Shown in pieces: positions 1 to 56,119 of a stretch of DNA of 64,000 nucleotides. The notes under the pieces are model-generated. The model saw nothing but the letters and a program-made list of their open reading frames with translations. It was not told the origin of the DNA and made no database searches. The first letter of the stretch is position 1; every line of letters starts with the position of its first letter. Both the position numbers and the translations under genes were made by a program. The stretch spans positions 38,974,801 through 39,038,800 of the forward strand of contig OX359247.1 in NCBI GenBank assembly GCA_947179485.1. The letters run 5' to 3'. This DNA comes from Allacma fusca (Eukaryota > Arthropoda > Collembola > Symphypleona > Sminthuridae).

Positions 1-3000
1 ATTGTGGCAAATCATTAAATGAAATTGGATCGGTGCTTCTTTCACGTAAATGCAGATTCCATTTGGCGAGGAGGGAGTTCCGTTCTGATAACATTTGCTC
101 GTTTATATGTCCCTCCTTAACCGATTTGTCTTCGGTAGTATTATCCGAGTCATTCACAACATGCTCATATCGATTAACCATTCCCATTGTCATATTTAGT
201 TCCTTCTGACTAATTCTGTGAAATACGTGAAAAGATTTTAAAGTTTAAAATGCAAGATAAATTAATTAACCTACGCAACTATTTAAGGCAATGTGAATTA
301 CTTACTCCTCGTTATGCATTCTAATGAAGTGAACGAATTCAGCATCGACAGTAGAAAATATTTCCACAGAATGTAAATCATCGAACCCGAATATGCTATT
401 AATGCACAGATCAGATTGCTCCCAATTTTGTTCAATCCTAAAAAGGTTACATTCATCGAAAAAAGCCTGAATTTTTTTCAGATGCTCATCCTTCAACTTC
501 CAAAAACATACGAGGAACTTCTCCCCTGGTAGGGCACTTTCAGGTTTTTCAATGGTGATTTTCGAAAAGCAGTGGCCCAAGTAAAACACCAAACCAACGA
601 AGAAGTCTGAGGTTGTATTATTGATTTTAAGAATAAATATTCCGCCCTCACGGACAAGTTTTAGGGCTAGCAGTGTTTGCACTAATGCAAGATCTTCTGA
701 TCGATTTTTCATTCCAGGGAAACCAATCTAAATGCATTTAACATAACATTTTGAGCAATAAACAACTGAAAATGAAACCAAAAGGAATATATAACTCGAC
801 TCACTCCATTAGCAATGAAGACATCCATTTTATCCGGAAAAGCAGCCTCCACGTGGTTCTCAATATCTCTGGTCGTCACAGGATCAAAAATATCTACCAA
901 ATCGTCTGGAAATACACAGAAGTTCACTTTGGTTACAAAACCTTTTCCTTATAATTATATGACTCCAAATCTTTAATAATTGTATTCTTTACCACGAAAG
1001 TTGTTGAATTTGTCATACGAAATTCCGGAAGAGTAACGCAGCTTCGCCATTCCTTTACCATTGTCGGGCATTATACCAAGACATCTTGATTTTGGACCTC
1101 TTTTCCATAAGAAGTAACTAATTTTGAGCACATTAAATAAATTATTTGACTACGACATTACAGATTCCTGCGAAATTGAACATATGTAAATGTACATATT
1201 ACATATATGTACGCAAAAACAGATAAACACAAACACAACTCACTCAGCATAATTTCCGTAAGAGCTAACAACATTGAGCTGGCTACTATAATTTCCATGC
1301 TGAGAAATCTCGGAACCAAAAGCATGATCCAATTCTGCAATTTGGTAAGATTCCAAATTCATGAGTGGAAAAACTAAATGATCGTCAACATGAATTTCCC
1401 AACCATCTCTAGGAAGGTTTTCAGGCATCAGACTCCAGAAAAGGTGATATCTTAAATAATCTGCAGTCTGAGTTAGATACAAGGAATCAAAGAATTAGTT
1501 TATATTTCTAAATACTACAACTGAACTGTGCAGTATTTGTATTAAATCACAATGTCAAACAACATTAAAAATAAAGAACGGCTTACTTTTCCCAATTCCA
1601 GATGTAATGTTAACTCGTCCATATTGATTTTACAATCGGAAGGGAAATATGGACCACATGGAAAGTTTTCGTCTCCACCTTCCACGTCAAGCTGGTAATT
1701 CTGTATGGGAAGTGCCGAATATTTCATGAAATTTTCGTATTCCTGCTCTACCACCTGATCACTTTCATTCCTTGATCTATACCACCTAGGAAACGGTACG
1801 TCTCGCACAGGATCTATTTCATCACCGTCATTCTCCACAGGCAACCTACGACCCTTGCCTTTGGCTGGTGTCTTCTTTGGCCCAAGTTTTGAAGGAGAAG
1901 GTGTCTTCTTGACAGGAGTAGTAGTATTAGCCTTTTCTTGCAATCGTGGTGAACATCTTTTGTTATCCCTTACGGATGAATTACTAGAAGTTGCTGAGCA
2001 ACCAGAATGTTTTCGTCTTCTTAAAGGCGATTTATCTTCAGGTGACGGAGGAGGCGTATCTGTTCTTAACTTCAAGCGAGTTAATTTGACCTCACATTTG
2101 GGAAGTGACGCTACTAATTTTTTGGTTGATTCGGAAAGACAATTTGATGAGTTTTCACAAGAATTCGCCGCAGGGCTGCTGGCTACAGAAGACGCTTGTA
2201 CTGGAGTTTTGGCTACTGGGATTGCAGAATTACTTGATGAAGTGGATGGGATTGGGTCTGATTTTTCATTTAATGCAGCTCCTTCGTTGAAATGAGTTAT
2301 TAATGGTTCTCCAGGAATAATTACTGGAGTCACTGAATTGTTTTCAACACTTGATTGCTGTTCAAGAACCGAGTGCTGCGGTGGTTCTTCTCGTTGTTTG
2401 GAAATTTCTGGAATAGTAACTAGAGAAGCCTGATCTGCTGGGAGAGAAGTTGAACTGGCTCTAGGAACTGATACGCTGTTTGAGGAATTTACGCCATTGA
2501 CTATGGCACTAGAAATAGTAGAACTGGTCAAAGGAACTACGGAAGCCGCGCTGGACACCAAAGGACAAACAGTAAAAATCCGAGGGTTACTAGGGGAAAC
2601 AATTTGGATGCGTAAATTTTTGCTTAAAGCAGATATATCCAACCGACTTCGCTTTGCCTTAGATTTTGGAATAACTTCAATAATTTGTACATCCTGTTCT
2701 TCGTCAAGTTTATCCGTACTAGTTGAATTTCGCTTGCGGTTTGATCCTGGTTTCTCTTCTAGGGTCCTGGATTCATTCTTGCTTTCAACCTTCATTGAAT
2801 TAGCTGCACCATCAGTAGGAGCAGAAACTCCAGCGGGGCCACGTTTAATAACTGGAGCTGGTACGCGATCGTTTTTGCTAATCTCGCTTACACTTGTATC
2901 ACTTGACTCATTTATGTTATTACCCGTATCCTTTTCACTTTTGGGGGTGCTGCCAAGATGATTACGAACATTACGCAGAGTGAAAGAAGCACTTGCGGAT

Positions 3001-3860
3001 TCTGGGTTAGCTGCAATATTGCTGCTACTCTGAAGTGTCTCAGATAAGTCTTGTGGTTCAGCTTCAGAAACAATGGCAAGATCTACCAACCTAGAATCAG
3101 TAATGCTAGACAAGCCATTGACACCAACATTTGTAACGCTCGAAGAATGATCTTCACTACTGGCTCTCCGGCTCGTGTTCTCGATATTATCACTGGGAAC
3201 ATTAAATCCGAGTAATTCATCAAGAAAAGGATCACTCAATTTATCCCCACTTGTGCCATTCTGGAGAGGCTCCACAGCTTGAAGATTCGATACTTGATGG
3301 TCATCGAGACCCTCATCACTGATGTCAGTCGGAGTTGCAAATATTTTATTTAAATAGCTGATTGCCAAATTCTGTCCCAAAGCAAGGCCATTCACTATCT
3401 TACAACCCCGCGACACTCCTACCTGGACATGCTCCGGCATGGATTTCAACATCTCAATCCAATTCTTGTAACCAAACATCTGGGGGAAAATATCCTCCCG
3501 GTAGTACACCTTGTATTCATCTTGAACCATTCGAATGTCGCAACCCAACTATTTCGATAAAAACAGATTATCACGTTTACTCCAGGACCATACGTCAACT
3601 TCATCACTGCCAACCCTCAGTATTCCCGTCTTCAGTATAAGCACAAGTAACAAACTACAAAATAATTTACAAAATCCACTCACGGTATTATGCCTTAATA
3701 GCAGCATCAATTGAATTTTCCTCCGCACATCTACTGGCACCCAGCTGCCTAAACTACTCATCGAGGTATTCGGGATGACCGGGGGAACTGAGATTCTACC
3801 ATTAGGAATTCCCATGCTTCCATTCATTTTTCCTGGTACATTAGCATCAGGTCGAACCAT
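1..3860 (-). CDS. LOTUS-domain / degenerate CMTR1-like methyltransferase fusion, copy A (3' end beyond window)
   Basis: Exons read on the minus strand: 3860-3684, 3548-1587, 1467-1244, 1117-993, 947-805, 727-306 and 209 to beyond base 1, with end phases 0,0,2,1,0,2; about 1,087 codons are visible. The N-terminus, split by the first intron, aligns end to end with LOTUS/OST-HTH domains of the TDRD5/TDRD7 type: a V-R-R-K-I-Q helix, an E/D-Y-K segment, a F-x-x-W-x-E-x-L-K-S-x-P turn. A ~550-residue Ser/Pro-rich linker follows. Exons 3-6 encode a CMTR1-type FtsJ fold, recognised by Y-F-L-W-K, R-E-G-G-I-F-I-L-K, F-x-V-G-L-V and P-G-E-K-F. The SAM loop reads V-S-S-Y-G-N-Y instead of a D-x-x-x-x-P-G-G motif, and the tetrad Asp position is Asn (F-I-A-N-G). 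The start at 3860 is the first Met; a later Met at M-S-S-L-G-S-W matches the paralogue's start better. The domain family is well supported; a dead enzyme is inference. Confidence 0.85.
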
Positions 3861-12045: not shown

Positions 12046-14783
12046 ATGTCCATGAAGTCACCGGCTGTGGACGCTACTGATTCTCCTTTACTTAGTTGTC
12101 AAGTTTCACCCGTCTATGGAAGGTTCGGAAGACTTTTGTTGTTTTTTTAAACCCGATTCCTTCATAGAACATTATATGTAGAAGTCGTAGGACATACGTA
12201 AAGAATGGGTATCGTGAGACCTTGGAGGAGAAAGCTGTGCACCTGTTCCATTTCTGACAATGTGTGGATAGGACTAAATAGAGGATTCTTGTGACTGAAT
12301 TTTTCAGATACCTGTGTACCAAAGTTGACGTTCAGAAGGGAGATTTATTAATCAAGGAAAAATATTTGGTTGCTGGACCGTTAAGTCTTTCTGGGGTGGT
12401 TTGCATTGGTTGTCATTCTGACTTGAGCAAGAAGTTTTTCAGGTAATTACAATATGTATATGATTATTTGATCATTATGTGACTGTAGAAGCTTTGTTTT
12501 GTAATATTATGAGATTTTGTAAATGAGAAGTGACTTGTTATAGAATATGTTCTTGAGAAATGTTTATCCTTTAACTTGAGATTCAAATGTACAAAATGCT
12601 CCTGGCCGCTGTGTGCGAACAAGTGCCAGAAGTCTCCATTCCATGCGATAGAATGTCAGTTTTTGTTAGAGCATAAAATTTTGGTAAGTCAGACTCTGAG
12701 ATTTGTTGTGGAATCCGAATTAGAATTCATAGGAAACTTGATGGTTTGCGATATACTAATCATTTCTTGCACAGCCACCTGAGGAACCCGACTCAGTCTC
12801 ATATGGGGCCATCACAGTCCTTCGAGCATGTTTGCTTAAGAAAACGAAACCTCGGGAATATAGCAAATTGATGGGTTTGGAAGCCCATAATGATATTCGC
12901 AAAGGCTTGCCACTATGGGATGCGAATGAGGAGCATGTGGTCAAAGTTATTCGTGACGAGTGGAAACTTGGCCAAGATTTCACGGCAGATGAAATTCACA
13001 CGGTGAGATAAATCTTTCATTCGTAGGTAGTATAATTATCAGTATGCATATTTCACGAGAGCTTAAATAAACTTGACGTGTATTTACTTCCATAATACTG
13101 TATAGTTACTGATTGCAAATTAACTCGAGGGTAATTCCTCGCGTCAACTACAATTACCCCAATAATATTTATGCGTCACAGATTTGTGGAATTCTTGAAG
13201 TCAACGGATTTGAAATCGGTGATGTTTATAGTTTTTTGGGACTCTTCGCTGTTACTTCCATGCTTGCTCATGACTGCGTGCCTAATGCCACCCATTTCGA
13301 GAACATTGATGAGGGTGTGATGGAGGTGAGAGCCGTGGTGGACATACCGAAAGGGACTCCTGTCACTATTTGTTACGACTGCTCTCTCAAGGTCCACTTT
13401 TTTTCACCCCATTGTTTAAAAAAAATATTTCCAAAATTTTTACATAGCTCACAGTATGTACTGTCACAATTAAATATTCACAACTTTTTAAAAAGTTTGT
13501 AGAAATATATTCTTGCCTTTGAAAACGTTTTCGGAGGCAAAGGCGTTAAATCTCCCCTATTTATTTTTATTTACTTATTTTATATATTACTGTATTATTT
13601 AAATTATATACAATTATTATAATATTATAGTCAACCTCCATCCGGAAAAAGACTCTAAGTAAGTCCAAGTACTTCGAATGTTCATGTAATCGCTGCAAGG
13701 ATCCAACGGAGCTAGGAACACATTTAAGCTCATTAATGTGTCAAAAATGTAAGAAGGGTGCGGTAAGTCAGATCGCAGAATGGGTTAATCCACCAACCTA
13801 CAAATGGGGATGCGATCGCTGTGTTTTCAAGTAATTAATGAAAACTTTCTTTTGTCAAAAACAAACTATCCTTGCCACCTCTAACCAAGCCTTGTGTACC
13901 TATAAAAATTACAGAATGGAAAACAGGGACGTGGAAATTCTCGTGAATAAATACTCCAGTAAAGCCACCAATCTGAAAGGAATTGAAACTCAAGAGAATT
14001 TTCTTACCGAATGTAAAAGTATCTTCCACACGAATCATTATATAGTTCTTGGCGTAAAATTTGCTTTGTGCCAGGTATAGAACAATAATACTCTTTTATT
14101 TAAATTAGCATCCTTTGATTCTAACTAATTGAATATCTAAATTTAGGCTTATGGAAGGGAGGAAGGTTACACCCTCACGGAACTCACGACTGAAAGCATC
14201 CACCGTAAACTCCAGTTGTGTCAAGGTCTAACTTAGTTCTTAGTTTTAACATTTACTTGAATTGATGACACCAAATAGCTATTTCGTACATGTTTATTTC
14301 AGAGGTACTTAAAGTACTGGATGTCCTTACGCCTGGTTACTGCATTACGCGAGGTTCGAGAAATATTATTCAAGTTAGCTCTTTAGTTCATTATTGAGTA
14401 TCAATAGGTGCAGGACGATAATTTGGAAATCATTTGAAAGAATAAGGGAATATTTGTGAACTGAATTTCTAGATTTAGAAACCTAAGAACAAATTAATTA
14501 ATGTAGGAATTAGAAAACTGATTACAATTCGAATGCTATTATAGGTCATGTTCTGTACGAGCTTCAAGCTGCAGAAGTCCTGATAGCGAGACAAATGGTA
14601 GAGTCAGGAAAGGCGTCCCGCTTACTCATTCGCAAGCGTTTAGCTGGAACTGTGGAGACACTCAAAGAGGCCATTACTATATTCGAGTTGAGCTATCCAA
14701 CTAGGATGCTTGCTGAGTCTGCAAAAACACAAACTTTAACCGAATTAGAAAACTGGATTGTTTCGCTGAAGCCAAAATTCTAA
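12046..14783 (+). CDS. SET and MYND domain protein, arthropod SmydA type (SmydA-8/msta-like)
   Basis: Ten exons join without a frame break into 493 residues: 12046-12122, 12308-12442, 12581-12683, 12775-13002, 13182-13391, 13631-13830, 13915-14074, 14147-14225, 14303-14353, 14545-14783. The SET domain begins at G-R-Y-L and is interrupted, as usual in SMYD proteins, by a MYND zinc finger (residues ~57-95; C-I-G-C, C-T-K-C, C-A-N-K-C, H-A-I-E-C). The SET core follows (~182-251) with S-M-L-A-H-D-C-V-P-N at the usual N-H-S-C-x-P-N site, then a post-SET cysteine cluster C-S-C-N-R-C (~267-273) and a helical C-terminus ending in an E-L-E-N-W-I pattern. SMYD proteins methylate lysines on histones or other proteins; the altered N-H-S-C motif is common in arthropod SmydA members, whose activity is poorly defined. 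The first donor (AG|GTTCGG) is weak, but phase and the G-R|Y-L join fit. Confidence 0.88.
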
Positions 14784-17175: not shown

Positions 17176-19569
17176 CTAGGGAAATCTCGGACCCCCACTC
17201 ATACTACCACTGCTACTGCTTCCTTCGTAATCTCCGGTTCCGCCACATAATTTTCGAACGAAGTCGTCATACTCACCCAACGAGGCTTCGAAGGTGTTTA
17301 ATTCCGTGTCAATATCAGCACTTGATCCTGGAAGGTTGGATTCCAGTGAAGTGAGATCTAATGGAGCTTCTTTTACTTGCTGGAAAAACGCTATAGGGTC
17401 AGACTCAGTGCCGGAGGAACTATTATTACCAACTTGCCCACTGCCTGCTGAAGGAGCTGGACTAGGAGCGAAGGGTGTTTTCTGGCAAAAAATTAGAAGA
17501 CGCCATTACATCACGTGTAACTCAATGATTCTCTTATAAGGTTAAATGCAATTATGATGGTGTCGGATCTGATAAGAATTGTATAAATGAATTTACCAAG
17601 TCAACCATTATGAAGTCGGCAGGGGGATTCCTGTCCCCACCGCCAGAAGAGCTTGATTCACTTGTGCCAGAGTCTGCTGGAACGTCCTGCTGCTCATAAA
17701 TAACCTCAGCCTTTTCTTTCTCATGGTTTCCTTTATTATGGTTCTGAAGCTTTTTAAATTTGATGGATTGCTTCAACAGTCCCGAAAACGGTATAGAGGT
17801 ATCTTCATCATCAGGAAGAACAGGAGTTATATGGTTAGGTTCAAAAGCAGCCACTGCATTTGTAGGATTTGTTTTTACTTGCGTCATCGGTGAGTCAGCT
17901 TTATCCAAGTTGAGCACTTCTTGACGCGGGAATGCTGGAGAACTGAATAAAATAAAATAGACACATTTAGTAACACTATTACTAAAACCAATCAACTAGT
18001 TTTCACCAATAATGGTTTTTCCCCTCTATGTTTATATTTTCCACTTGCTCCGGTTGAGTTTGAATCTCCTTCGCTCCCGTGTTTCCATAGTGATCACTCT
18101 TGATCATCAGCTTATTATTGACAGGCACAATTATCTCTAGTCTTGTCCGGTAACTCAATTCAAAGACCAGTCCTCCAAAGGGAGTGCCGACAGTGCCTAA
18201 TTCTACACGCTTGAACTCCTGTCCGAGTACATCTGCATAATCACATTGCTGGTCTGCTGTATAAATGTTATAGCACATGATGTAATCAGAGGTCTTCATG
18301 CGGCTCAGCTTGTACGCAGGGATGACCCTGGTTACAGAAATGACACTCCTGAGTAACAGTGCCATCCGATTGTAAACCGTGTTCAAAATACGGATGTTGG
18401 GCTCCTGTAATTCCTGCTTGAACGTGAGCGACCATAATTCTAAAATTAATGTAGACTCTGGAGTTTTCAGACTTATTTCCACAAACAAGGGAGGCTGACC
18501 AGGGATAGAAGTAGTCGAAATGGCACGCTTTGTCTCCTGTAGAATCTCAGGGTTATCATCAATGGTCAGATTGAACTACAAAAACAACACATCAAATTAT
18601 TGTCATTCAGAAATAAACACTAACACAATTAGCGATAAGTCTAACATCATTATCCACCGCCAATTTGTCCTTCACTTCTGTCAAAGTTACTCTTATCAAC
18701 TACATTGCTATGTCAAGGTGCTCCTTACACTGCCCAACCAGTCATATCTTCCATAAATCCCATTTCCCTCTGCTATACCACATCACACAAATCCCAGCAT
18801 ACACATCCCACGCTCATACCATCTCTGAACCGTGCTGACATTTCCCCGTATTAGGCCATCAACCAAACACAAACATAATAACAGACGAGCTCAAAAGAAG
18901 GAGTAACCGATTTACACCAAATGCATACGTGACAGACTCTGATATTAAATCAAGCATCCAATTCGCATTCAAATCTAAAAGGAAAAAATAAACGTCAAAA
19001 AGTCCAAACTCAAATCACACGTTCAATAGATAGGGTCGACTATTGACTAATAAGAAGACACATGTCAGAACCTGTCAGTATTTGAGAAATTTAAAAAAAT
19101 CCGAAACACTCTGAAGGTCTAAAAGTATTCATTTACAAAATCGCTTTTATCAATGACACAAATTCTCGCTTTCACCACCAAATATCTCTTCACAAATGAA
19201 CACATTTAATTTTAGCTTCCAGTTTAACCTCGCATATGTTCATTTCTGTCTCTCCGCCGACGATCCAATTCTCAAATATTCTATAGAAACACACTTAAAC
19301 ATAACCATCCATTCAAAGAATATCAAATATATAATCAACTATATTATTACCCAATCCGCTCCCGTCGACATAGGCTTCGATGCACACTTAATCCTCTCCC
19401 CCAACCTAGATTGAACTATAACTTGGACACATTTGAGAGTAAAAAATTTTGCGAATCTCTCCAAATCCTTACGGTCCTGCTGAACGTCCTTCTTATTATT
19501 CCCACCACCCGGGCCTGGTCCTGAGAGCTCGGTCGACGGACCGGCCACAGTCAGCGTTGGTGGGGTCAT
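17176..19569 (-). CDS. ATG13: autophagy-related protein 13
   Basis: Four minus-strand exons (19569-19351, 18575-18007, 17942-17597, 17481-17176) join in frame to 479 residues, close to the size of animal ATG13. Residues ~35-250 carry the HORMA-domain signature: [44 protein letters not shown] and V-G-T-V-G-T-P. The C-terminal half is disordered and Ser/Gly-rich. A likely LC3-interacting motif, A-D-F-I-M-V-D-L, occurs at the end of exon 3 (residues ~371-378), where vertebrate ATG13 has D-D-F-V-M-I-D-F. Near the C-terminus E-Y-D-D-F-V-R-K-L matches the conserved F-D-A-F-V-type tail. ATG13 bridges ULK1/ATG1, FIP200 and ATG101 at autophagosome initiation. The start is the only Met upstream of the HORMA domain in the first exon. 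Confidence 0.95.
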
Positions 19570-23494: not shown

Positions 23495-26400
23495 ATGAGT
23501 GCCTCAGGGTTTGTCCCTTTGGATGTTCGTAGGAAGCTGCAGGTTCTTCTGCTGATTCGTCACGGAAGTGTAAGTTTTATTGATTGATTTAATCCTGGTG
23601 TAATTCTGTTTATTTTAATAGAAATAAAGTTAAGTTAAAAAATATTTTGATTGAAGAGTTCATTAGGTGTTTTTATATTGTAGACAGCAATCGCTTATTC
23701 GTATGTGTTTCTGTACTGTCCTGTTAATTGTCACTGACTGTCTTTGCAGCTCGGGCGGGATGTATCTTGCGTCCATGATGACTACAAAGTGTATTACAAG
23801 GAGTTCATTGAACCTGGCATGTACAATTTTAGGGACTGGGAAACGCTTCTGAAGTCTATTCCAGAAGTGGAAGTGAAAAGATCTAAGAGATGTAAAATAG
23901 TTTCTGCAAAACTTGTTACACATGAATTTGCACTGGAATTGTTGTCCCGACTGTTCCCTTCGGAGGATCCCTCTGATGGAGTTACCGATCAAGTCATGGG
24001 TATATCCCCCGAACCAGATTTTTCCGTAGATTCGTTCGTCGATAACTTGCTGGCTGATAATGCTACTGCTGTTGATGGAGGTCAGAGTGCGGATAGAAAT
24101 TTTCAAGCAGGAGAAAATCGTCAGGAAAATGTAACGTCATCTTGCCCAGATTTTCCTGTAACTTTCGAGAGGATTTCGAAGGTAGAAGTCAGTTCGCTGG
24201 TTTCCCCATTTCTTCCGGGACAATCGGTTGTTGCGGCGGCAGATTCTGGTAGTCCGTCATCTCATGAGGGTGAAGATGATCATGATGAGGAAATAATTCC
24301 TTCGACCTTAGATGTCAGTAGTGAGTTATTAAATGGCGGTAATACAGAGGGAACCAGCGGCGAAGAAAGTCTACGTGGGAAAGTGATGTCAGTAGTAAAT
24401 TCCGACAGTCAGGCATATGGGGAAAGGGACGAAATCGAAACTATTGCGGATTCAGTTAAGGAGGATACGCCCGCAGCGTTTGTTCAGGAAGAATGTGACG
24501 ATGACATCCAAGTGGTGTACGAAGCTATTACTACATTACCTACCTCTCAGTCGACTCCCACCGTCCCTGTTATGAAGCGTAGCCCATTTGATGTTATTCC
24601 TCGTAAATGTACATTTCGACCGCATAGGAAGGGATCTTCTAGAATTAGTGCTGGAAACAACAATGGAGTTACCCTCGAGCGTTTGAACTTTAAAGCCGAT
24701 GTTATGTGTAATAAAAATCTTGTGAACGTGAATAATCACACCGCCACGGCTCAGCTTCAAGCCCAACCTTGTGAGCGTACAAATGAAGAAGAAATGGTAA
24801 AGGTGGAGGTCAAAGAAGAAATAATAAAGGTGAAAGTCAAAGAGGAAATAATAAAGGTGAAAGTCAAAGAAGAAATAATAAAGGTGGAGGTCAAAAAAGA
24901 AATAGTTAACGTAGAAGTTAAGACTGAATGTTCTAACGACGAACAGTCTGTTAGAGCCACTGTTAGTCAACCAAAAAAGTCGGAGTCGGAAGAATTAAAA
25001 GTTCAGTCAATAAAAGCTGATCAGTTATACACTCCCGCTGTTAACGGTGCGCATTATCAAAGTCATTCTAGCCCTACCGGAATAAACGATGATAATCAAA
25101 ACACCGTAGGTGCTGGTGAACCTCCAGCTCTAGATTCTTTCTGCAGAACACGTACTTCCGTATGTGAAGTTCAAGATCCCGTCGAAATTGAAGGATGTTA
25201 CCCTAAATATATAAATGTAACCCCAGCTACAGTTCCTGACGAATTGCCAGAGATTAATTCTGTGATCATCGATGTTGCTTCACTTGGAGATTCTGTTGAA
25301 GCGCCAAAGAATATTACCATATTTCCCGAAGACACGCCACCTCCGTTGGATGTGCCTGAGAAAAATTCCAAAGTAATAAATAAAACCCCAGATCCTGACG
25401 AAATATCGGAAACGGCGAAAATCCCCGGAATAACTGCAGAAGCGCTAGATCTTGTGGTGGCACCTGTTGATGTTCCGATGGGTGCATCTGTAAGTACATG
25501 TTGTCCTTCAGATATTCCAGAAAAGAATGGCGGTCGCAGTTCCTCGTCAGACTGTACGAGCGACACTACTTCTCATTTGAGTGATTCCAGCAGCAACTCA
25601 TCGTTCTCGGATTATGACTTTTGGGGACCTTCGAATTCTAATATTGCAAGACTGTCAAAGAGAAAAAACGGCCGAAATGACCACTTCATGGAAGAATCTG
25701 TCCAAAAGAAGACTGAAGGCAATAGTGACGAACTTGGTATCGACAACTCGTCCAAGCATATAAATAATACCATAATCAGAACGCAACTTCCCAAGAGCAA
25801 CCTCCCTCTCAAACGTCCGGTGGAAACTCCACCCGCAGCATCTTCGGTGGGACGGAAAAGGCAGAAAAGAGTCACTCCCGGAGCAAGTACTTTAAAGGGG
25901 ACATGTAGAAGCACAGTTGCTAATAATTCCTTAACTGAGATGGCATGGTTTAAACGAGATACAACGAAATCGGTACACGCAAGGTTTGTTGATTATTTTG
26001 CCATTATTGAGCATAATCGTGTCTCCGCGGAACCTTACCTAGATCGGGAAGCATCAAATGAATTCGTTGAGGTGGAAGGTTATGGTTATAACGTACATGC
26101 CAAGCAAATTAGTGAGATGCGGAATAACAAGGTGAATGCCGTAATAATTTTGTATTAACAAAGAACTTGAAAAGTAACAAAATATGTGTTGATATTTGAT
26201 TGAAAAGAATTGCAGTTTAAATATTTTGTACTTTTTATAGAATCCAAATATATTGTGCTTCCATCCGTTCTGGAGCCTTACTCCTCAGTGCAAGAAAACT
26301 TCATTTGCTAATTTGTGGAAAAGTGATGAAATTCCAAAGCTTAGTTACGATGCAATACAACTTCTAAATGTAGATGCAGACACTAACTATTCGCTCTCAT

Positions 26401-29400
26401 CTCAAGAGACAAATTTTCAGCTGAACTTTGTCAGCTCATATGGCAAGTTTGAAGAGTAAGTTCACTTTAGAATTGTGATGGATGTGCCGGTATTTTAAAT
26501 TATATTTTGTACAGTTGTTTTATGACTGGTAATATTATTTTTTACATTTACTTATAGATACTTCATTTGGAGGAATGGAAGCAAATACAAAGGCTTCGGG
26601 TTAATGCCAACGGGATCAAGCACGGACGAAACAACCAGATCGCCTGACCTCTATTACAATAATTTCTTACCGTTTGCAGGTATATTAAATACAACATATA
26701 ACTGGCAGCAACATGCAATGATTGCTAGTTCTGTAGGTCAAATCAATTGCTTCATTATGCCTATTTCTTGTTGGCAGGGACTTGCCAAGTAAATATTATG
26801 GAACCAAGCACCAGGATTGAATTTACAGAATTTGTGCAATCTAACTTACCGTCTTGCTGTTCCGGTCTTGACATATTCGTGGCTAATGGAGTAAGCGACA
26901 TTCGATTATTGAAATTTTAGTTTCGAATTCACTGTTTACAATTTTATTGATTAGATATTGTTATCGGATTAAATTATGGTATGTTTATAGCGCAATATGC
27001 ATATAGTTATTGTATGTTTGTTTCATTTTCCGATGGATTTAGATAGGTGATCCTTCAGTTAAGCACCGCCCCCAAGACATCTGCTTAACTCAGTTTCTAT
27101 TAGCGTTAACACTGCTCCGCGAAGGAGGGAATTTTATTCTAAAAGTAGAAGACACTTTGACTTGCTTTGGAGTGAATTTACTCTTCCTTATGTCTCGGTG
27201 CTTTGTGGAAATAGCTATTCATAAACCTTTGAGTGCTTTCCCTGGGGAGCGGTTTATCATCTGCAAAAGTAGACTACATGCTGGGGAAGTTGAAACCGTG
27301 CGGAAGTTCTTGGAGCGCTGTTATAATCGCGTTGTTGAGGTTCGCTGGTCCAATGGAATAGGAGAAATCACCAGACTTTTTGCGCTTAATGCCAAAGACT
27401 TTTTCGAATGTCATGATTCAGATTTTTTGGATTATGTCAAAATGAGGAACAATACGTGAGTATAAATATCTTTTTTATGTAGCCACATTAACTGAAATGA
27501 TGTCTTTGCAACTTATTGTTAATACAGACTAAACCAGTAAGATTTGACTTGTTTGTATGCATAATCTGTGTATATGAGTCTAATATGCTGGGACTTTTCG
27601 GAGTTTAATTTTCTGATGAAAGTTTCACCGTACGGAACAGACTGGTAGAACTAAATATTTTGGTTAGCTTCAATTATCGCTCATTTATTCCTTAACACGC
27701 CATTAGACTTGGTATTTAGGTGCTTTAAAGCACTATTGTATGTACAGTGTTTTCGTCCACATCTAGGAAGTTAAAAAATCCTATTTTGACTGTTCCACAG
27801 TATCACAGTATCACAGCATCAATTGTCCTTTGGAATTCCAAGCTACGATAGAGGGCAGAACTGTCCTCGTGGCAATGGAGTGTGCAAACAAGCATTCTCG
27901 TATTATTGCCACTGTCTTTCGCTTGTAAATCGGGAATCTATAATTCCGTTATATACAATTTAATTCTAATACTAAACATAATTTTCAGTGTTGCAACTAC
28001 AGAATGGGACGAATGGGATCGTTTCAAGACAAAGGCAAAATTAGTAACATCTAAAACGCATAAGGAATCATTGTTGTTGGATTTAGCTGCAGAGAGAAAT
28101 CAGATTTGGAAGATTTGGAGTTCTAATTCCAAACCGGAGATTTACTGGAAATCCGTATTTGGAAATAGTGATGCCGGTAAAGTTGGTTGTAGCGACTTGA
28201 ATATTTTCGAAGTTTGTCTATTTTTTAAATGGTTTGTTAAAAATGTATTTCATATTTAATTTTTCAGGAATAATTCTAGATAGATCAGAAAAGAGTGTCA
28301 TGACAGCCGTGAAGCGCTTTAATTCACCACTGGGACATATGAATCAGTGGAAATTCGTTCCATCTAGTGGATCCAATAATCGTTTTATAATTTCGGGTAG
28401 GTTTTATTAAATACAGAATACAGAGCTAACTTACATAATTAATTCAATTACAAATTACAACTACTCTGTTTGATATTGTAGCATGTGAAGATGTGGTATA
28501 CAAATACCAGGACAAATCTTGGAAGATAATTCCACATCTCCAACTCACCAAGGGAACCGTATTATATGGTGAATTAATTCAGAGTGCTTCTACATCCCGT
28601 GTTCTCAATATAATTGATGCTGCTATGATAGGGCTTGAAGATATTCGGCATTTGAGCTTTAGTGAACGGTGACTTATATTTAATATTTTTACTATTTTTA
28701 CTATATAATTAATTGCACTCTGTGGTTTTAGCCGTTTGAAATCTACATGTTTCATATTGGGATTTAAGTTTTGGTTGGTGAAATATTTTTAGCCGTATAT
28801 TTCTGTTGAACGTGTGTTTTTGACTTGTACATTACAGAAGAGATTACTGTGTGAGTTTCGCGAATGATATGGATACCCCTGTGAATTTGGAGTACCGTGT
28901 AATTTGCGCTGATTTGATCAACTTAAGAGAGCTTAATTCCTTTCTAGCTGAGTAAGGCCTAATATTTTATGTTTAACACTATTACAAGTTGAAGCGACAG
29001 CGTTTATAAGTACTCGTTATTTCTTGTTTATTTTTTGCGTTTTCATTCAACCTTGGATTGTCTTCAGAGTTGCAGATGCAAAAGAAAAGGGAAAATTTAT
29101 TTTCCGGAATTCCGGTAACCAACTGATGGATTCTGTAACCAATAAAAATACACTTGTGGAGTTTAGGGCTGTTGAAGTGTTGCTTTTGAAAACTAGAAGA
29201 GCTCCGGTGGAGGAATATGCAGACGATGCTGGGAGTAGTAATGTTGGAACCGGCGACTTCGGGTAAGGTTTAACCATAAACTTTATATGGTTACAGGTTA
29301 CTGCATTTTAAAACAGTAATTGATTATGTGTTGGTTCAAAAGAATGTATAGAATTCTTTATTTGTGAATAATATTTTAGTTTAGTATAAGCTTTAAGTGA

Positions 29401-29590
29401 TGTTCCTAAATGAATTGAAGAATTTAAAAATTTTATCTTTGTACATAGATTTCTGATGCGAAATCGCTTGTTCTGGGAATGGAACCCTAGGTCGGACCTT
29501 AACGTGATGGCTACGGATATGTGTAGTGAATTTGCTGAAGATTTTGCAACCGCTCTTGTTGAATATTTAGCCGAACACGCTAAGAATTAA
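23495..29590 (+). CDS. LOTUS-domain / degenerate CMTR1-like methyltransferase fusion, copy B (complete)
   Basis: Twelve exons join in frame to 1,424 residues: 23495-23569, 23750-26131, 26241-26455, 26558-26679, 26778-26890, 27043-27455, 27989-28176, 28268-28396, 28482-28668, 28838-28951, 29068-29262, 29449-29590. Residues ~9-85 resemble a LOTUS/OST-HTH domain (D-V-R-R-K-L-Q, D-D-Y-K-V-Y-Y, F-R-D-W-E-T-L-L-K-S-I-P-E-V). A ~700-residue acidic, Ser-rich linker follows, holding a 27-bp tandem repeat. Residues ~820-1110 form a CMTR1-type FtsJ fold (E-Y-F-I-W-R, K-G-F-G-L-M, E-G-G-N-F-I-L-K, F-G-V-N-L-L, P-G-E-R-F-I-I-C-K). The rest matches the CMTR1 guanylyltransferase-like domain, with a C-terminal R-L-F-W-E-W. 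The G-patch and WW domains of vertebrate CMTR1 are not seen. The SAM motif reads V-S-S-Y-G-K-F and the tetrad Asp is Asn (F-V-A-N-G), while the second Lys and the Glu remain. RNA binding without methyl transfer is inferred. Confidence 0.88.
24800..24928 (+). repeat. 27-bp in-frame tandem repeat coding K-V-x-V-K-E-E-I-I units
   Basis: Four full 27-bp units (24800-24826, 24827-24853, 24854-24880, 24881-24907) and a partial fifth (to 24928) lie in the linker of copy B. Each unit codes nine residues of the form K-V-(E/K)-V-K-(E/K)-E-I-(I/V). With the base before the first unit, the stretch holds seven psi-K-x-E sites (V-K-V-E, three V-K-E-E, I-K-V-E, V-K-K-E, V-K-T-E), the consensus for SUMO attachment. 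Copy A has no such array. Confidence 0.85.
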
Positions 29591-36900: not shown

Positions 36901-37968
36901 GCCCTCAAAAGTTATCGTCCACAATTGAATGTGCTTTCACCTCCGCTTCATTATGCTGAAGATGAGGTACTTGCTTACTTGTAAATACAGGTTAATTAGC
37001 TCTATGCGTAGGTATTACTTGATGGTGTACTTTTTCACAGCTGGCGTGGATGTCAGACACAGACCCCTCGTTTCATAAGTTTTTGCTGATGGAACCAGCG
37101 TCATCGTTTGATCTGGAGGACTCCGAGTCAGAATCAGAAGCGCAAAGGTTAATGACTCAAGCTTTCAAGGATGCTCTGACAATAAACCAGAGAGAGTCCT
37201 TAGTTGGGACCATACAGAAGAACCCTAAAGTGATTTATCAGCTTGGACTAAGCCCGGAACGATTCCCCGACTTGGTGGAAAATAATCCATTTGTTGCCAT
37301 CGAAGTCTTACTAAGACTGATTGATACCCCTGAAATAACTGAATATTTTTCGGTGCTTGTTAACATGGTAATGTCCGTTCATTCCATGGAAGTTGTCAAT
37401 AGGTGAGGTTCGGAGATGTTTTAAGTAATTATTGTGTTGGTAATTTTATTTTAAATGAATAATTTATAAAAAGACCATTTCTTCTAATTAAGATTGGCAA
37501 CCTCTGTAGAGGTTCCGCAAGAATTTCTTCACCTGTATATTTCAAATTGCATATCTACGTGTGAGGGTATTCAGGATAAGTATGTACAAAATCGCCTTAT
37601 ACGTTTGGTCTGTGTTTTTCTTCAATCCCTCATAAGAAATCGTATCATCAATGTTCAGGTAAGATATGAGCCTTGTATTTTTTGTGCGTGTAAACTTCAT
37701 ACTTTTACTACTTTTTACTTTGTTTCCGTAGGATTTGTACATCGAAATAATGACGTTCTGCTTGGAGTTCAGTCGCATTCGAGAAGCCTCTGCTTTGTAC
37801 CGCCTCATGAAGCAGCTGGAATTAGAAGACACGAATTTGCAGCAAGTCCTTGTTAAAAAGTTAGAGAATCATCCGAATCAGCAGCAGTTATCAGAAGCTG
37901 CTTTTGCTAAAAGTTTAATTGGACAAAGCTCGCCGTCACCATCCGGTGCGAAGGAACCCAAGAGTTAA
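33990..37968 (+). CDS. CNOT11: CCR4-NOT transcription complex subunit 11
   Basis: Nine exons join in frame to 499 residues: 33990-34048, 34311-34405, 35933-36093, 36218-36322, 36550-36719, 36822-36966, 37041-37402, 37493-37658, 37732-37968. The C-terminal domain (residues ~246-445) is nearly diagnostic: [74 protein letters not shown]. The N-terminal part ([17 protein letters not shown]) fits the helical region that binds CNOT10 and CNOT1. The protein belongs to the cytoplasmic deadenylase complex, outside its catalytic subunits. A ~47-residue tail after the conserved domain is Gln/Ser-rich. The start is the first Met, preceding the conserved N-terminal helices. Confidence 0.95.
34406..35932 (+). 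other. CNOT11: long second intron of CNOT11 with inverted repeats
   Basis: At 1.5 kb it is far longer than the other CNOT11 introns (about 75-265 bp). It holds a perfect 13-bp inverted repeat, agcgattgagacc (35418-35430 and 35521-35533), several more ggtctc/gagacc motifs, and a hairpin around 34869-34900 (tattcggcc...ggccgaata). A decayed insertion is likely but no ends or target duplication were found. Confidence 0.55.

Positions 37969-42020: not shown

Positions 42021-56119
<14,099 letters not shown>

Follow-up and report, generated by a model that had tools for sequence, protein, structure and literature searches.

LOTUS and CMTR1-like modules are joined in two sister genes of the springtail Allacma fusca

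The window analyzed here is a 64-kb stretch of the Allacma fusca genome (C10:38974801-39038800), most likely part of chromosome 3; all genome searches described below were run against the A. fusca assembly (392.7 Mb, 91 contigs). On its plus strand, gene A occupies positions 23495..29590 and consists of 12 exons (23495-23569, 23750-26131, 26241-26455, 26558-26679, 26778-26890, 27043-27455, 27989-28176, 28268-28396, 28482-28668, 28838-28951, 29068-29262, and 29449-29590) that encode 1424 aa in a frame open throughout, from an ATG at 23495 to a stop codon at 29588-29590. All of the introns (11/11) are GT-AG, and their phases are consistent; the start, the stop, and the introns are the same as those proposed in the initial annotation, which had also given 12 exons and 1424 aa. 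The neighboring genes were identified by Pfam matches to a SET domain (13113-13499, plus strand), ATG13 (18006-18575, minus strand), CNOT11 (37023-37403, plus strand), and DOT1 (53126-53701, minus strand). Neither a tRNA scan nor an Rfam search at gathering thresholds returned anything in the 64-kb window. If C10 is chromosome 3, the window lies inside a heterozygous inversion of about 5-45 Mb that is described in the available part of PMC10427803.

From the N to the C terminus, gene A encodes a LOTUS domain, a long hydrophilic linker, and a CMTR1-like module from which key catalytic residues are gone. Exon 1 (23495..23569) encodes the first LOTUS helix (residues 1-25), ending at an intron whose position and phase are as in gene B (see below), and the first part of exon 2 (23750..23959) encodes the remaining LOTUS (residues 26-95), as located by Pfam, profile, and HMM comparisons. 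The middle of exon 2 (23972..25969, about residues 100-765) is a linker rich in S, V, E, and D that contains the basic run RKRQKR. Within this linker, a VK-E repeat (KVEVKEEIIKVK..., 24797..24928) carries seven [VIL]KxE motifs against 0.76 expected, a count reached by none of 5000 shuffles; these motifs are, we assume, possible SUMO sites, and the gene B linker has none of them. The FtsJ/CMTR1-like part extends from the end of exon 2 to exon 6 (25970..27455), as defined by Pfam, PDB profile searches, and a MAFFT alignment. Exons 8-9 (28268..28668) encode a guanylyltransferase-like domain, which in PDB and paralogue profiles matches the CMTR1 region that follows the methyltransferase, and exon 12 (29449..29590) encodes an R-L-F-W-E-W end that is common to a third gene, gene C.

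Gene B lies on the minus strand at the start of the window (1-3860) and begins about 20 kb from gene A. Within the window (1..3860) are its first six exons and most of the seventh, and the remainder lies past the window start (L004, 4667 to 6000); when completed from the genome, gene B has 12 exons and encodes 1342 aa. Its exon 1 (3684..3860) includes the first LOTUS helix, and exon 2 (1587..3548) covers the remaining LOTUS and the linker and extends to the upstream edge of the CMTR1-like module. Exons 3-6 together with most of exon 7 (1..1467) encode this module within the window, with Q in place of K, N in place of D, and a replaced SAM loop. Genes A and B have a common exon structure, with the same intron positions and phases, and contain the same two modules, joined by linkers of about 520-670 residues. 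The frames are open across 12 exons in both genes, and we therefore rejected the possibility that they are decayed pseudogenes. The initial annotation described a single fusion gene; gene A is such a gene, but the genome also contains the sister fusion gene B and gene C, whose module is changed in the same way and in which LOTUS was not found.

The joining of exons was read from genomic sequence alone, which leaves room for the reading that gene A is a false union of two genes, one for LOTUS and one CMTR1-like. Against this, a single open exon of 2382 nt (residues 26-819) begins inside the LOTUS domain and reaches the upstream edge of the CMTR1-like module, so that the fusion in gene A is independent of uncertain splicing. 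Exon 2 of gene B, of 1962 nt, likewise runs from inside the LOTUS domain to the CMTR1-like edge. Given a shared exon in both copies, we rejected the two-gene reading, which appears very unlikely, to the point that we would hardly credit it. The proposal that LOTUS-like and CMTR1-derived modules occur in one protein is borne out, as both modules were matched and are bridged by one open exon.

The LOTUS domain was identified by several comparisons of differing strength. In Pfam, OST-HTH matched both N termini, at 18.9 bits (E = 0.0014) for residues 1-102 of gene A and at 20.3 bits (E = 0.0005) for the 106 equivalent residues of gene B; both scores are under the cut-off of 23.8 bits, and no other Pfam domain was found there at E up to 1. 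With exon 2 alone, the OST-HTH match weakened to E = 0.032 (gene A, where it is the sole Pfam match) and 0.019 (gene B), and among the three matches listed in an exon-wise genome search with PF12872 there was neither gene A nor gene B. A two-row profile of A and B was then compared with six LOTUS domains, four from the PDB and two from the A. fusca genome. It scored 37.3, against 22.3 for the best of 1000 column shuffles and 12.9 for the reversed profile; with the four PDB domains alone, it scored 30.8, against 20.9 for the best shuffle. For each of the two LOTUS sets, the score was thus reached by 0 of 1000 shuffles. A six-sequence LOTUS HMM built without A and B ranked gene B first of 20,002 sequences (21.8 bits; best shuffle, 10.6) and the gene A LOTUS 12th of 20,002 (7.0 bits), so gene B bears much of the proof for the LOTUS domain of gene A. 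When the LOTUS-alignment profile was searched against the PDB, the only LOTUS chain came last of eight (E = 1.5). The LOTUS exon of gene B had four matches in the genome, namely itself, gene A (E = 3.6e-12), and two that are non-significant (E = 0.84 and 7.2).

In view of the shuffles and of the first rank of gene B, a chance match was rejected. Another winged helix that merely resembles LOTUS would be in keeping with scores that all fall under the curated cut-offs and with the weakness of gene A taken alone, but OST-HTH is the sole Pfam match in both genes, no shuffle reached the profile score for either LOTUS set, and both A and B retain the D/E-Y tyrosine and the L-x-S-x-P block; we consider this reading improbable. 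The initial annotation had pointed to the same motif residues, correctly, and to a gap-free alignment over about 65 residues. When A and B are aligned with the four PDB domains, the alignment is 59 columns long and has one template gap. After the last LOTUS strand, where eLOTUS domains, the Vasa-binding subclass, have a C-terminal helix behind the wing, the sequences HEFALELLSRLF (gene A) and QNLAISYLNKIF (gene B) could form a helix. According to the available part of PMC5458760, the eLOTUS domains of Oskar, TDRD5, and TDRD7 have A or S at the position of Oskar A162. In A and B, this position holds V, L, or M, depending on the register of an alignment read by eye, a finding that, as far as sequence can tell, counts against an Oskar-like mode of Vasa binding.

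The C-terminal 659 aa of gene A matched human CMTR1 with E = 7.4e-17 over query residues 119-531, a match that extends past the FtsJ-like domain; an A/B profile gave 1.9e-17, and gene B has an FtsJ match in Pfam (6e-06) above the Pfam cut-off. For the domain after the methyltransferase, A, B, and C compared with human CMTR1 and three genomic copies scored 75.7, against 19.9 for the best of 500 shuffles, and residues 594-676 of human CMTR1 were found by one of those three copies at 1.6e-05. PDB searches with the C-terminal 256 aa of gene A alone, with the C-terminal piece of gene B, and with an A+B two-row C-terminal profile did not return CMTR1; for the C-terminal third of A and B, the link to CMTR1 runs through the paralogues in the genome itself. 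With these matches, the CMTR1-like half described in the initial annotation, from the FtsJ fold to R-L-F-W-E-W, is upheld. A and B are like CMTR1 in having an FtsJ-like domain followed by a guanylyltransferase-like domain and an RLFWEW end, which we take to be the end of human CMTR1 as well. CMTR1 carries G-patch and WW domains, in whose place gene A was said to have a LOTUS domain; in agreement, neither G-patch nor WW was matched by Pfam at E up to 1 in the scanned pieces of A and B. The 21 G-patch matches in the genome all lie outside the window, and also away from C10:47.57 Mb, the site of the presumably intact CMTR1. A pattern scan of viral contigs with the CMTR1-like alignment, a weak test in that the patterns came from a poorly conserved stretch, gave 133 matches and no relative by tblastn.

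To describe the catalytic residues, we counted positions along the human CMTR1 chain 8p4e_O. D364, K404, and E441 are regarded here, by their presumed roles, as functional positions of CMTR1. In A, B, and C (3/3), K239 is changed to Q and D364 to N, while K404 and E441 are kept. The CMTR1 SAM loop, CAGPGGFSEY, is replaced by VSSYGKFEEY in A, VSSYGNYADY in B, and VSSFGNFGEY in C. The significant PDB alignment of gene A begins at residue 884, so the K239 column comes from the MAFFT alignment only. In human CMTR1, the K239A mutation abolished activity, as stated in the available part of PMC13129544. With these replacements, the CMTR1 part does not resemble a working cap methyltransferase, and the module of A and B looks catalytically dead. 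The cap methyltransferase fold assigned to gene A at the outset can thus be retained as a fold by sequence, but not as that of a working enzyme. A working 2'-O cap methyltransferase to which LOTUS was added as a targeting domain would account for the kept K404 and E441 equivalents and for the CMTR1 fold match (E = 7e-17). It is nevertheless countered by A and B both having Q for K239, N for D364, and a different SAM loop, and by a separate copy elsewhere that keeps all three; we rejected the active enzyme reading, and such an activity would greatly surprise us.

We searched the genome with exon 6 of gene A, which gave nine matches. Besides A, B, and C, these comprise four other CMTR1-like copies (one with a stop codon) and two weak matches. 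The copy at C10:47.567 Mb (L037) retains K239, D364, and the SAM loop residues, including ADG, and is the likely working CMTR1. In the two copies at C10:49.143 and C10:61.519 Mb, the catalytic residues are partly changed: one (L036) has N for D and R for K404, the other (L035) has R for K239, Q for D, and D for E441. The copy at C14:57 kb has a stop codon inside the match. The C10:49.143, C10:61.519, and C14:57 kb copies represent a local expansion of the CMTR1-like family. Gene C is located at C5:3.955 Mb on the minus strand of X1 (L034, C5:3950801-3960800) and, like gene A, has the changed module and the RLFWEW end. LOTUS was found at gene C neither in 20 kb, using the HMM on open frames, nor by the genome-wide search with the LOTUS exon of gene B. 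Upstream lies a C2H2 zinc-finger ORF, which may or may not belong to gene C, with a PF00096 match under the cut-off (E = 0.00019). One copy of X1 is eliminated in males, according to the available part of PMC10427803. In a separate observation, PF02353 (cyclopropane fatty acid synthetase) had 23 matches in the genome, 17 of them at E<1e-75, at C1:27.48-27.54 Mb, at C8:58.18-58.26 Mb, and at single sites, several of the matches being in tandem clusters; in an animal genome, these look like expanded genes of putative bacterial origin.

A seven-row tree of CMTR1-like sequences, which leaves out L038 and L039, separated A, B, and C from the rest with 100/100 support and left the three as an unordered group. 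By parsimony, the loss of catalytic residues would predate the gene from which A, B, and C all descend, and the LOTUS fusion would predate the A/B duplication. Between A and B, identity over aligned residues is 46% in LOTUS, 35% in the FtsJ-like part, 26% in the C-terminal part, and 25% in the linker, so that LOTUS is the best-kept part. The dN values range from 0.56 to 1.07, and NG86 returned dS = -1, for which reason no dN/dS ratio can be given; the missing dS value fits an old pair, as A and B appear to be.

These data bear on the possibility that A and B are pseudoenzyme regulators, whose dead module acts on the working CMTR1 or on the RNA substrates of that enzyme, by competition or by binding, for example in cap-0/cap-1 sensing, antiviral defense, or quality control, with LOTUS adding RNA affinity only and with no germ-granule role. 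Such a function would agree with the graded series of CMTR1-like copies (one intact, two partly changed, three changed, namely A, B, and C, and one with a stop) and with gene C, which has the changed module and in which LOTUS was not found in 20 kb or genome-wide. It is at odds with LOTUS being the best-conserved part between A and B, which argues that LOTUS is hardly accessory, and we regard a purely regulatory function as possible, though rather unlikely.

The reading toward which we lean, with some reserve, is that A and B are LOTUS-pseudoCMTR1 proteins that act as a non-catalytic RNP scaffold. It is built on the modules, the open frames, the residue loss, and the order of conservation, as found in the genes themselves; from these, binding to RNA or a helicase, granules, and the germline would be predictions. 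In such a scaffold, RNA 5' ends or a CMTR1 partner would be held by the dead CMTR1 module and structured RNA or a DEAD-box helicase by the LOTUS domain, while the linker would allow molecules to come together. The overall plan would be that of Oskar, the organizer of germ plasm in insects and a textbook case of a new germline gene, in which LOTUS is combined with an enzyme fold that lost catalysis and turned RNA binder, and this resemblance is why a non-catalytic scaffold is favored. The linker is shorter in Oskar than in A and B. Oskar joins its N-terminal LOTUS to a hydrolase fold that lacks catalytic residues and binds RNA, as described in the available parts of PMC13389597 and PMC2848206, and A and B share the arrangement of an N-terminal LOTUS joined to an enzyme fold with lost catalytic residues. 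The two differ in that the enzyme part of Oskar is a GDSL/SGNH (bacterial-type) hydrolase, the OSK domain, whereas that of A and B is CMTR1-like, and in that the A/S position at the Vasa interface is not kept in A and B. This lack of the small residue counts against Oskar-type Vasa binding and against a germ-granule version of the scaffold. The germ-granule or small-RNA role that had been proposed for gene A is one that we can only infer.

Other known proteins share one module with A and B. CMTR1 differs from them in that A and B have K239, D364, and the SAM loop replaced, an N-terminal LOTUS, and no G-patch or WW match. TDRD5/Tejas and TDRD7/Tapas also have a LOTUS domain; no Tudor domain was found in the scanned pieces of A and B (for gene B, pieces from residue 33 onward), and a separate LOTUS gene at C12:38.34 Mb has a weak Tudor match under the cut-off (E = 0.0077). 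MARF1/Limkain b1 likewise contains LOTUS in a multi-domain RNA protein, but unlike A and B it has several minimal LOTUS domains. A separate gene at C10:54.22 Mb, with at least two LOTUS exons, looks like a candidate MARF1. In the full-text literature, most subscription journals being beyond reach, we found no protein combining LOTUS with CMTR1 or FtsJ, and none linking a cap methyltransferase to a germ granule, in accord with the initial view that a LOTUS + CMTR1-type protein had not been described. For LOTUS and Collembola, the same literature gave PMC13389597 only, the LOTUS passages of which, in the part available, concern oskar. In the available text of the LOTUS-fusion survey PMC2848206, the words methylase, methyltransferase, and FtsJ occur 0 times; in that of PMC8662646, methyltransferase appears solely in a reference; and in that of PMC7250577, on the origin of oskar, springtails are not mentioned. 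The architecture may be present unnoticed in other springtail annotations.

A more specific version would make LOTUS-pseudoCMTR1 an independent springtail counterpart of Oskar, that is, an organizer of germ plasm or nuage in which a dead cap methyltransferase holds RNA, possibly tied to the germline chromosome elimination that occurs in globular springtails; we consider this version doubtful, and offer it as a speculation. As at least two old copies show, catalytic residues can be lost from the CMTR1 fold while its reading frame stays open. If the scaffold reading is true, A and B would represent a second, unrelated protein of LOTUS and a dead enzyme in another branch of arthropods, which would mean that this route to building an RNP organizer is repeatable, and they would provide a concrete germline candidate for springtails with paternal genome elimination.
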